Of a stretch of DNA of 6,797 nt, positions 3,216-6,790 are shown one piece after another; position 1 is the stretch's first letter, and every line of letters starts with the position of its first letter. The notes beneath the pieces were generated by a model, which was not told the origin of the DNA, did no database searches, and saw only the letters and a program-made list of their open reading frames with translations. The position numbers and the translations under genes were made by a program. This stretch comes from Candidatus Dadabacteria bacterium (lineage in GTDB: Bacteria; Bdellovibrionota_C; UBA2361; J135). The stretch is taken from positions 1-6,797 of the forward strand of contig RFKT01000247.1 of the NCBI GenBank assembly GCA_003694225.1, read 5' to 3'.

Positions 3216-3277
3216 ATGGAGCGGGGCATCTTGCCCATCCGAAGCTCCCTCTGCAGGCTAGAAGCCTGCGCTCCATA
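3215..3277. repeat. 63-bp nested palindromic element (REP/MITE-like)
   Basis: An outer inverted pair TATGGAGC (3215-3222) / GCTCCATA (3270-3277) encloses two complete hairpins: GGGCA-TCT-TGCCC (3224-3236) and GCAGGCT-AGA-AGCCTGC (3253-3269), the latter abutting the outer arm exactly. Folded, it makes a three-way junction, in DNA or RNA. The wording (GGGGCATCTTGCCC, then GCAGGCTAGAAGCCTGCGCT) is of the type I recall as dispersed intergenic repeats in several environmental bacterial genomes. That is memory, not a search. It lies between the convergent rplS and LOG-like genes, a usual place for such elements. The rest of the 3122-3485 gap shows no clear gene. Confidence 0.6.
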
Positions 3278-3485: not shown

Positions 3486-5477
3486 CTACACATCCAAAAA
3501 CTTTATATGATCCAGTACAGGGGGATCTGCAGATCTTATTTCTTCTGAGGTCATAGTCAGAAGCTGCTTTCTTAGTCCATCCCAGAAGCGCCCGCTCCTA
3601 TTTAAAGCAGCGTTCATAAACAAAATCATAGGCAAAGGACGGCCGGAAAAGGGTGTAGTTACTATCTGCTGGAGCTGCACAGCCAACATTATAGATGAAG
3701 CAACTTCCAGTTCTGTAGGGCCTCCTGGATAAATGTAAAACGCAGAAGTGCGGCCTATCGAAGCCAAGAGGGCTGTTCTCAAACTAAGAGACTCAAGCGG
3801 TGGCCCTACAATCTCACTGTAGCCATATCTGCTATGAGCTCCTGTTTTCTCCCCATTAATCTTAAGTTGAAGCCTTACAAAATCAGATTTTGAATCTTCC
3901 CCTCTTTCTTGCCGAAACCGTTTCTTTGCTTCAAACCATTCATCCCTAAGCCTTTTGGATAAGCCTTCTCTTCCGTCTCCTCCAACGACAATGGTATATC
4001 CACGTGTTACAGCCTTCCTTACAGCTTTCTTCATGCTCTCTTCAAGGTTCCTGTTCCATACCTCGTCCTTAGCGCTTCCCACAAAAACTACTGTCTTATG
4101 TCCGTTAAACTGACCTATCAAGCCCTTTAGCTGTCCTCTCCACTTTCTCGCCATCTCCACAGCCTTATTGATACTTCTATCTACAGCATCGTTGAGAGAG
4201 ATCCCTTTCTTTCTCTGCCGCCTAAACTCCTCCAATACAAGCTCCTCCGCCTCAAGCATTACCTGCTCCTTATAGTGCGCATTAAGAAGCCTCTCATATG
4301 TGGTTGCGTTACCTCCTGTAAAGATCCTTTGGTTAAATGCGAGGTCGCCCTGCAAGATAGAATTTACAGCCCTAACAACTCCTCTCTCTGCTTCCGATAA
4401 ATTCTCTTTTCTTCTCTTCTCTTCCTTGGTTCTCCTGTCTCTAAGGAGGTTCATATGGCTTATAATCACTTCAGATAAGGTCTTTGGATCTTCCAATTCA
4501 TCAAAGCAGGTGCATCTAAAATCCACTCTCCTTGCAGCCCCCGCTTTAACCATCGCACCAAACTGCTGTTCCATCCCTTTCCAAAAATTTCCAACCCCTT
4601 TAAAACGAGCACTAAGAAAGAGGCCGGTTGGCTCAGTTGGTTGATGAGAGAAAAATGTCCTTAAATTCCTCCTCTGCCTTCCTTTCCCGATCTTTACCTC
4701 CGCCAAATACCGTGACATCTCTTCAAGGGTGCCGATCCCTCCGGGGAAATATAGCTCCACAGAACGGATGCCTAAGGCATACAAAGCCGGAGTTCTTGAA
4801 AGAAAGCTTTCCAGAGCCCTCGTTACAAACCCTTCAGAGCCATCGGAAGACGGTTTTTCCGTTGACTCTCCATGAAATCTTAATAAAACCAGTATAACTT
4901 CTGAGGAGGTCCCTGCCTCGCCCTTTTGGGATTGGGCATCTATCTCATTTCGCCACGCCCTGCTTACCCTTCCCATTACCCCTGTGCAGGCGCCCCCGTT
5001 AATTACAGAATAGCCATTTTTTACCCCCTCAGAAGCCAAATGCTTCAGAAAAGACTCAAGCTGATCATTCCAAACCCTGCTCCTTGCGCTTCCATAAGCT
5101 GCTATTACAAACTTGCCCTCGCACCGATCCCAGAGTTCTCTCCATTCATCCCTTGCAGAAATTGCCATCTGAACAGCACGGCTTATAGCCTCTTCTGTGG
5201 CTTGCGCCTCATCCTTCCCATGTGCAATAAGGTATGAATAAAGCCTTGTCGCCTCTCTCTCCGCTTCAATACAAAGCTGTTCCTGATAGTCCCTGTCGAG
5301 TATACGCGCTATCGAAGGAGCGCCCGGCTCAAATCTCGCACGGCGAAACTCCGGGTTAGAATCAAGCGATTCCTGCACCCGACTCTTTAATGAGATATCG
5401 CTATTTAATGATGTAACTGAACCCCTTGGCTGAATAGAGTGAGCCGGAGTTCCAGTTTGCACTGTTTCTATACCCAT
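3486..5477 (-). CDS. Tandem LOG-like (TIGR00730/PF03641-type) protein, two units
   Basis: This 663-residue soluble protein consists of two homologous units of about 270 residues. Each has a helical preamble (59-118 and 396-456), a Rossmann-like start (FVIAAYGSARSRVWN at 123-137; TVVFVGSAKDEVWN at 462-475), a glycine loop (GGACTGVMG 161-169; GGDGREGLS 499-507), the signature region (PGGIGTLEE 245-253; PGGPTELE 584-591) and a closing FW helix (FWKGM 298-302; FWDGL 631-635). The family hydrolyses the N-glycosidic bond of nucleoside 5'-monophosphates (LOG, PpnN); PGGxGTxxE lines its active site. Unit 1 keeps that motif; in unit 2 it is one residue short and lacks the Gly-Thr step, so unit 2 may bind ligand or only stabilise the fold. 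The first 50 residues look disordered; residues 346-365 are a charged linker. ATG at 5477 follows AGAGAAGAGG. The substrate is unknown; assignment rests on motifs. Confidence 0.8.
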   Translation of the reverse strand: MGIETVQTGTPAHSIQPRGSVTSLNSDISLKSRVQESLDSNPEFRRARFEPGAPSIARILDRDYQEQLCIEAEREATRLYSYLIAHGKDEAQATEEAISRAVQMAISARDEWRELWDRCEGKFVIAAYGSARSRVWNDQLESFLKHLASEGVKNGYSVINGGACTGVMGRVSRAWRNEIDAQSQKGEAGTSSEVILVLLRFHGESTEKPSSDGSEGFVTRALESFLSRTPALYALGIRSVELYFPGGIGTLEEMSRYLAEVKIGKGRQRRNLRTFFSHQPTEPTGLFLSARFKGVGNFWKGMEQQFGAMVKAGAARRVDFRCTCFDELEDPKTLSEVIISHMNLLRDRRTKEEKRRKENLSEAERGVVRAVNSILQGDLAFNQRIFTGGNATTYERLLNAHYKEQVMLEAEELVLEEFRRQRKKGISLNDAVDRSINKAVEMARKWRGQLKGLIGQFNGHKTVVFVGSAKDEVWNRNLEESMKKAVRKAVTRGYTIVVGGDGREGLSKRLRDEWFEAKKRFRQERGEDSKSDFVRLQLKINGEKTGAHSRYGYSEIVGPPLESLSLRTALLASIGRTSAFYIYPGGPTELEVASSIMLAVQLQQIVTTPFSGRPLPMILFMNAALNRSGRFWDGLRKQLLTMTSEEIRSADPPVLDHIKFLDV

Positions 5478-5488
5478 CCTCTTCTCTA

Positions 5489-5675: not shown

Positions 5676-5788
5676 AGATTTAATCCTCCTCAGAAATGCG
5701 CCTAAAAGAGCCTATTATATCGGTTGTGGTTTGCGCTCATATATATCTATATATCCATGGCTCTTTTTCCCAGATACTAACTAAAAAA

Positions 5789-6790
5789 ATGAGAATCATA
5801 AGTCCAATATCACGTGGCAGCGGGGCCTATATAGTGCATAAGCTTTTAGCCTCTAAGATAGCCGGATATGAGATAAGGGGGTTTTCGCACATTGCAGGTC
5901 ATTTCCCGCTTCTGATTGAAAGGTCGCTTGCGAAGTGCATCAAAGGCGCCGACTTGGTTCACACCTTGCCCGACTATGGAGGCGCTTTATTAAGCCACAC
6001 ACCTTCTATAATAACCTTCCATAATTACGTACTCTGCGGCGAAATCGTTAAGGATTATAATCCGATTCAAGCATTCCACAAACTGTTTTACCTAAAAAAC
6101 ATGGTACAAAAAGCTGTAAAAGAGGCTTCCAAAATAGTGGCCGTGAGCAGATTTACCGCGCAAATAGCCGCAAAAGACTTAAATATTCAAAATCCTATTC
6201 AGGTAATTTATAACGGAATTGACGAGAAGCTTTTTACTCCCAGTCCCTCTTCTCGCTCCTCAAAAAAAAGAGAAATTGTTGTTCTATTTAGCGGCAATTT
6301 AACGAAGAGAAAAGGCGCCCACTGGCTAAATGATATTGCCAAAAAGTTTAATCCCCGAATAAGGCTTATATATACCTCAGGACTCAGAACAAAAACCAAA
6401 CTGCCCTATCAAGCGAATATGGAGTGCGCGGGCAATATAAGGTACGAGGATATGCCTGACTTTTACCGCTCGGGGGATATTCTTCTCTTTCCAACAGTAA
6501 GAGAGGGATTCGGACTGTGTGTTGCAGAGGCTATGGCGTGTGGCCTTCCTGTAGTTGCATCTGACTGTTCATCCCTGCCGGAGTTAATAGATCACGAAAA
6601 GGGAGGTTTCCTTTGCAAAATAGGAGGTATAAAAGATTTTGCAGAGAAAATTAATCTCTTAGCAGAAATCCCATCTCCAAGGAGAGAGATGGGCGAATAC
6701 AATAGAGCTAAGGCAGAAAAAATGTTCACTTTAGATAAAATGGTTAAGGAATATAAGAAGGCGTTTGAAGATGTTGTGGATGGGAATTGA
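5789..6790 (+). CDS. Glycosyltransferase family 4 (GT-B fold)
   Basis: From ATG 5789 this is a 333-residue GT4-type enzyme, a cytoplasmic or membrane-associated retaining transferase that moves a sugar from a nucleotide-sugar donor to a glycan or lipid acceptor. The N-terminal domain begins with strand MRIISPI and glycine loop RGSGAY (9-14), then HTLPDYGG and ITFHNY. The linker motifs AVSRFT (118-123) and YNGIDEKLF (141-149) lead into the donor domain: SGNLTKRKG (168-176) and the EX7E pair E239/E247 in REGFGLCVAEAMACGLPVVAS. The C-terminal helix ends at 333. The frame is open back to ATG 5696, adding 31 residues, but the domain starts at 5789 and family members normally begin at that strand; neither start has a Shine-Dalgarno. 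Acceptor and sugar cannot be told; envelope polysaccharide synthesis is a reasonable guess. It diverges from the LOG-like gene; anything co-transcribed would lie beyond the right edge. Confidence 0.92.
   Translation: MRIISPISRGSGAYIVHKLLASKIAGYEIRGFSHIAGHFPLLIERSLAKCIKGADLVHTLPDYGGALLSHTPSIITFHNYVLCGEIVKDYNPIQAFHKLFYLKNMVQKAVKEASKIVAVSRFTAQIAAKDLNIQNPIQVIYNGIDEKLFTPSPSSRSSKKREIVVLFSGNLTKRKGAHWLNDIAKKFNPRIRLIYTSGLRTKTKLPYQANMECAGNIRYEDMPDFYRSGDILLFPTVREGFGLCVAEAMACGLPVVASDCSSLPELIDHEKGGFLCKIGGIKDFAEKINLLAEIPSPRREMGEYNRAKAEKMFTLDKMVKEYKKAFEDVVDGN

Follow-up and report, generated by a model that had tools for sequence, protein, structure and literature searches.

LOG enzymes have identical sites in homodimers or hexamers. 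In CgLOG, Arg99 and Glu122 have been proposed as the catalytic residues, the phosphate lies on the PGGxGT loop, and the pocket is formed by dimerization, with Glu125 and Trp129 of the neighboring subunit reaching the proposed prenyl site (PMC4979012). For the proteobacterial nucleotide 5'-monophosphate nucleosidase PpnN (YgdH), a duplication event behind the gating domains has been suggested by its authors (PMC6717881). Here we consider a 663-residue protein encoded in a 6,797-nucleotide stretch of DNA (the window) that makes up one whole contig, RFKT01000247.1, of a Candidatus Dadabacteria bacterium (GCA_003694225.1). The tandem is real, conserved and asymmetric, its units are predicted to have the LOG fold, and it scores under the curated cut-offs of the family. 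With slightly better than even confidence, we read it as a fusion of homologous LOG-like units that joins a single-active-site enzyme acting on nucleoside 5'-monophosphates to a non-catalytic partner unit.

A chain of two homologous units

The gene occupies positions 3486..5477 of the minus strand, on which all its features below lie, and starts with ATG. Unit 1 (residues 1-363; 4389..5477) comprises N-terminal helices and a LOG Rossmann unit with an intact signature, and unit 2 (residues 364-663; 3489..4388) a second helical preamble and a LOG-fold unit in which the signature is degraded. When the protein was split after residue 363, the halves aligned over nearly their full length, with 28% identity across 278 residues (BLASTP E 4e-24), and their Smith-Waterman score of 253 compares with 500 shuffles that averaged 35.7 (standard deviation 5.3) and never exceeded 64. 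Profiles of unit 1 and unit 2, each built from three sequences, match with a probability of 99.7 (E 3e-26, 285 columns; hhalign), and unit 2 matches a profile of the unit 1s and single-unit relatives with a probability of 99.8 over 281 columns. Chance similarity is ruled out by these BLASTP, hhalign and shuffle scores, and the full tandem duplication claimed by an earlier, sequence-only reading of this DNA stands: its halves are homologous by all three comparisons, and the paired motifs that it named are found in both.

The predicted secondary structure repeats at a start offset of 338-339 residues, as seen in the helices 55-85/393-423, the strands 123-128/461-466 and 157-160/495-499 and the helices 248-264/586-605, with the strand that follows these elements (284/617) at an offset of 333. 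What is repeated is the helical preamble together with the whole of the Rossmann unit. The preamble of unit 1 covers about residues 33-119 (5121..5381; predicted helices 23-40, 55-85 and 90-119) and that of unit 2 about residues 394-456 (4110..4298; predicted helices 393-423 and 428-456).

A LOG Rossmann fold is predicted for both halves, the modeled structure of each unit matching LOG structures best. Among solved structures, LOGs match at E 1.1e-9 to a profile that combines the unit 1s with the single-unit relatives. The unit-2 profile found no LOG structure directly, which by sequence goes halfway to the outcome that the sequence-only reading had named as telling against itself, only one half falling in the LOG/SLOG fold; this is overturned by the homology of the two units in profile comparison and by the structure model of unit 2.

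Relatives and age of the duplication

Two further two-unit proteins were found: P0002, of 683 residues, from a JGI metagenome, and L002, of 703 residues, from genome G014 of the same order as the source. The source genome is fragmented (1.65 Mb in 343 contigs) and 70% complete, a state in which a two-unit frame might arise through misassembly or when two genes are read through by chance; with the same unit order recurring in these independent proteins, that explanation is refuted and an artefact practically inconceivable. The source phylum is small, with 45 genomes in one class in the genome collection searched. A two-unit profile matches seven of them at E 0.001, two of which (the source and G014) span both units; among 382 genomes, the phylum included, nine match, again with only the source and G014 spanning both, and the two matches outside the phylum are open frames of 211 and 228 residues. 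In the protein database only P0002 and P0003 matched besides the window protein, among about 8000 candidates scored each time; the species collection gave at least two partial matches and the viral collection no homolog. Single-unit relatives comprise L003 (339 residues, E 5e-24 to unit 1), L004, L005 and L006, with a more distant one in L022.

In a tree of these units the three unit 2s share one branch (support 100/99), and a second branch holds the three unit 1s (71/89); support is below 80 on four of seven inner branches, and three of the four single-unit relatives have long branches. Since the units form separate branches, the duplication is older than the split of the window protein, P0002 and L002.

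A signature kept in unit 1 and replaced in unit 2

The catalytic signature of unit 1 is intact. It includes R228 (codon 4794..4796), which aligns with Arg99 of CgLOG and takes its role from that enzyme (PMC4979012), along with G246-G247-x-G249-T250, E252 and E253, the PGGxGTxxE stretch reading PGGIGTLEE (residues 245-253; 4719..4745). Its degraded counterpart in unit 2 is PGGPTELEV (residues 584-592; 3702..3728), with G249 replaced by T588, T250 by E589 and E253 by V592 at the catalytic Glu position; the counterpart of R228 is R567. Thus the PGGxGTxxE signature with its catalytic Arg is found in unit 1 and fails in unit 2. The sequence-only reading had described unit 2 as one residue short, which proves incorrect: the motif is substituted. 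The Arg-to-PGG spacing is 17 in both units, and unit 2 agrees with canonical LOGs in having 17 residues between PGG and the conserved Gln in the next helix, so that a deletion is ruled out.

The asymmetry noted by that reading extends to the two other two-unit homologs. GGxGTxEE and the Arg are present in all three unit 1s, and the GxGT loop is absent from all three unit 2s, degraded differently in each (PGGPTELEV, PFGLEGAEV and PVGSSGLSE). The catalytic Glu position of the three unit 2s holds V, V and E and the catalytic Arg position, as read from the alignment, R, S and Q; every unit 2 lacks at least one of the pair. That nucleotide hydrolysis has been lost altogether, leaving a protein that binds or carries a ligand in the manner of the molybdenum cofactor carriers with a LOG fold, is improbable, as three of three unit 1s, at only about 30% overall identity, keep the GxGT loop, E252 and both catalytic positions, and LOG enzymes outscore the molybdenum cofactor carriers in structure matches.

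The loss in unit 2 fits a replacement under selection rather than decay, because unit 2 is as conserved as unit 1: its identity to the window protein is 31-32% vs 28-30% for unit 1, with 51 invariant columns vs 48. Such conservation on its own account, including invariant residues missing from unit 1, would also suit an allosteric sensor, in which unit 2 would gate unit 1 by binding an alarmone or a different nucleotide at its altered loop, much as the PAG domains of PpnN do with (p)ppGpp; PAG2 of PpnN structurally overlaps part of a second LOG monomer, and a duplication origin has been proposed for it (PMC6717881). We nevertheless regard such a sensor as unlikely, the GxGT phosphate loop being degraded differently in each unit 2, contrary to a conserved phosphate site, and neither PAG1 (DUF4478) nor PAG2 (DUF3412) being matched at E up to 10 by the full-length chain or by either half.

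Other tandem LOG proteins in the phylum

Matches to PF03641 (Lysine_decarbox) occur in 41 of the 45 phylum genomes, mainly as short one-unit frames. Among the longer frames, L055 (3976-5421 in genome G015; 481 residues) has two Pfam stretches, PGGMGTLDE and then PGGIGTIDT, with T replacing the catalytic Glu in the second unit. L056 (3806-5290 in genome G004; 494 residues) is a relative in which the second half is degraded; the first halves of the two match at E 3e-8 and the second halves at E 2e-5, and the halves of L056 are linked to one another only via L055, their direct score of 34 not exceeding the highest shuffle. In L057 (911-2212), L058 (3719-4951) and L059 (4374-5669), of 410-433 residues, it is the C-terminal LOG unit that is intact, and the first half resembles a degraded LOG by eye only: its hhalign probability is 15 against its own second half and 12 against a LOG-like profile, and the half-vs-half scores of 39, 38 and 36 for L057, L058 and L059 do not exceed the highest shuffle. 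The sequence-only reading noted that LOG-type proteins are normally single units; the window gene is not unique as a tandem, given the others in the phylum.

Tandems with one degraded half are the product expected of the duplication step proposed for PpnN. It is conceivable, though we give it rather less than even weight, that lineages of this phylum repeatedly turned the LOG homodimer into one chain with a live and a dead unit, the dead unit coming last in the window family and in L055/L056 and the putative dead unit first in L057-L059. Such chains would then be obligate one-site pseudo-heterodimers and living examples of the step by which the PpnN gating domains might have arisen.

Proposed working of the fused protein

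The window protein is predicted to work like a LOG by its signature and fold. Because only unit 1 keeps the full signature, unit 2 is likely to be a built-in partner and not a second enzyme. Unit 1 would hydrolyze nucleoside 5'-monophosphates to the base and ribose 5-phosphate, a reaction assigned from its signature, and by analogy with LOG homodimers unit 2 would pack on unit 1 and line its pocket. At the positions three and seven residues past the catalytic Glu, where the neighbor in LOG homodimers is proposed to supply pocket residues and a cytokinin-specific LOG would have its Glu/Trp pair, all three unit 1s have R and E and all three unit 2s small residues (S/G and A/S; S and A in the window protein). 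Small residues here would leave the base end of the pocket open, and unit 2 lacks the Glu and Trp that form the proposed prenyl site; an unmodified nucleotide thus seems a likelier substrate than a cytokinin precursor.

The same positions bear on how the chains might assemble. LOGs are known as homodimers, or as hexamers where an extra N-terminal helix is present (PMC5379747), and with long helical preambles on both units the protein could pair, or assemble further, by each unit contacting its own kind in another chain; a dimer would then have two active sites, and unit 2 would be a scaffold outside them. We judge this arrangement to be quite unlikely, since all three unit 1s share R256 and E260 at positions from which a neighbor would point into the pocket, and these would be expected to crowd a unit 1-unit 1 site.

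The units also differ at a Gln nine residues past the catalytic Glu position (residues 262 in unit 1 and 601 in unit 2 of the window protein; 4692-4694 and 3675-3677). Thirty canonical loci were examined with a motif filter that found the signature in 28 and missed two; all 28 have the Gln, as do three of four tabulated single-unit relatives and three of three unit 2s. It is absent from all three unit 1s and from the five intact units of the other tandem proteins, and hence from all eight intact tandem units examined. The degraded halves of L056 and L057-L059 were left out of this count, their anchor being uncertain, and that of L055 has Asn. A trans role for the Gln, as a sign of unit 2 serving unit 1, was rejected, as helix geometry is reasoned to place it opposite the trans residues.

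The gene context of the wider family agrees, indirectly, with nucleotide hydrolysis. In genome G005, L003 lies 201 bases upstream of a transaldolase gene on the same strand, followed by genes for glucose-6-phosphate dehydrogenase and OpcA (L018, 4636-9825), which together form a pentose-phosphate cluster and hint that ribose 5-phosphate is put to use; in genome G039, L006 adjoins the purine gene purC (SAICAR synthetase) on the same strand (L021, 3151-5244). Ribose 5-phosphate from nucleotide breakdown by PpnN has been proposed to feed the pentose phosphate pathway (PMC10311079).

Several observations weigh against reading the protein as a LOG enzyme fused to its partner. The whole protein scores 26.8 bits against PF03641 (E 6.6e-6), below the curated cut-off of 27, and residues 125-267 score 31.1 bits against TIGR00730, below its cut-off of 96.35; because these cut-offs are missed, the LOG identity rests on motif and fold. 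T229 stands where CgLOG uses Lys100, and a type-II LOG required the equivalent Lys156 to be active (PMC5379747). The Glu is retained at the catalytic position of L002 unit 2 and the Arg in unit 2 of the window protein. The halves of P0002 are weakly alike in direct comparison (score 66, shuffle maximum 68), and the asymmetry is drawn from just three two-unit proteins of shared origin. Among the open reading frames scanned, no pentose-phosphate or purine genes adjoin the window gene or L002. Finally, the internal pseudo-dimer of one active and one non-catalytic unit put forward by the sequence-only reading agrees with the predicted folds, the homology and the signature kept in unit 1 and lost in unit 2, but its packing was not seen in the full-length model, for which the predicted template modeling score (pTM) is 0.49. 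A genome search with PF03641 at E 0.001 gave no match in the source genome.

A fused pair with one lost signature is of interest in that its halves can be altered separately, making the contribution of the second subunit directly testable. For PpnN, which is linked to the stringent response, it likewise supplies a natural model of the duplication from which the gating domains are proposed to stem.

Neighboring genes and the question of defense

The tandem gene has as its divergent neighbor a family 4 glycosyltransferase gene (5696..6790, plus strand) and as its convergent neighbor the gene for ribosomal protein L19 (2624..3121, plus strand), both assigned by family-model matches. The other genes of the window are mreC, mreB and open reading frames of 100 and 80 residues, both without a family; the former (1955-2257), between mreB and the L19 gene, matches nothing in Pfam and comes near no NCBIfam cut-off. 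A purine-rich AGAGAAGAGG at 5475-5487 directly abuts the ATG of the tandem gene, nearer than a usual ribosome-binding site, and a GTG five codons inside the gene could be the true start. The palindromic element GCAGGCTAGAAGCCTGCGCTCC at 3253-3274 is a REP-like repeat, with 19 copies in the genome at up to two mismatches vs none for a reversed control.

A defense role, which the sequence-only reading had held to be unsupported, finds no better footing here. The only PADLOC match of the window protein is one of 37 residues to STALD (E 0.0048), and among the six neighboring open reading frames scanned no known effector was found. The sole conflict-related sign is that the glycosyltransferase scores 31 bits against the 'GT4 in conflict systems' model, passing its cut-off of 26; general glycosyltransferase families match it far better, at 94 bits, and the defense candidate was set aside on these grounds. 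A family 4 glycosyltransferase gene adjoins L002 as well (L017, 10755-11834, convergent), and scores 24.9 bits against the conflict model, under the cut-off unlike that of the window. Near L002 there is also a zeta-toxin-like gene (PF06414, 44.1 bits; L017, 6494-7288), of which none was seen in the window.

Comparison with known systems

In Thoeris ThsA and in TRPM channels, SLOG domains serve to sense ligands within different architectures, and the window protein matches the ThsA model over the 37 residues given above. In the literature, no description of tandem LOG proteins was found among the matches listed. The closest likeness is to the LOG enzymes themselves. Unit 1 shares with type I LOGs (CgLOG 5its/5zbl; AtLOG3 2a33) the Rossmann unit, the GSAR/GGG region, the Arg and PGGxGTxxE, and shares the same features with type II LOGs (TtLOGII 1wek; CgLOGII 5wq3), both units matching LOG structures best. 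Unlike these single-unit enzymes, the window protein joins a pair of homologous units, of which the second lacks the signature, and has two long helical preambles, along with Thr at the Lys100 position, no Glu/Trp at the trans prenyl positions and scores below the cut-offs. L003, from the same order, resembles unit 1 in its signature and N-terminal helical region and differs in being a single unit within a pentose-phosphate cluster. The PpnN equivalog model does not match the window protein at E up to 1, and, unlike in PpnN, the extra part of the chain is a recognizable LOG unit.
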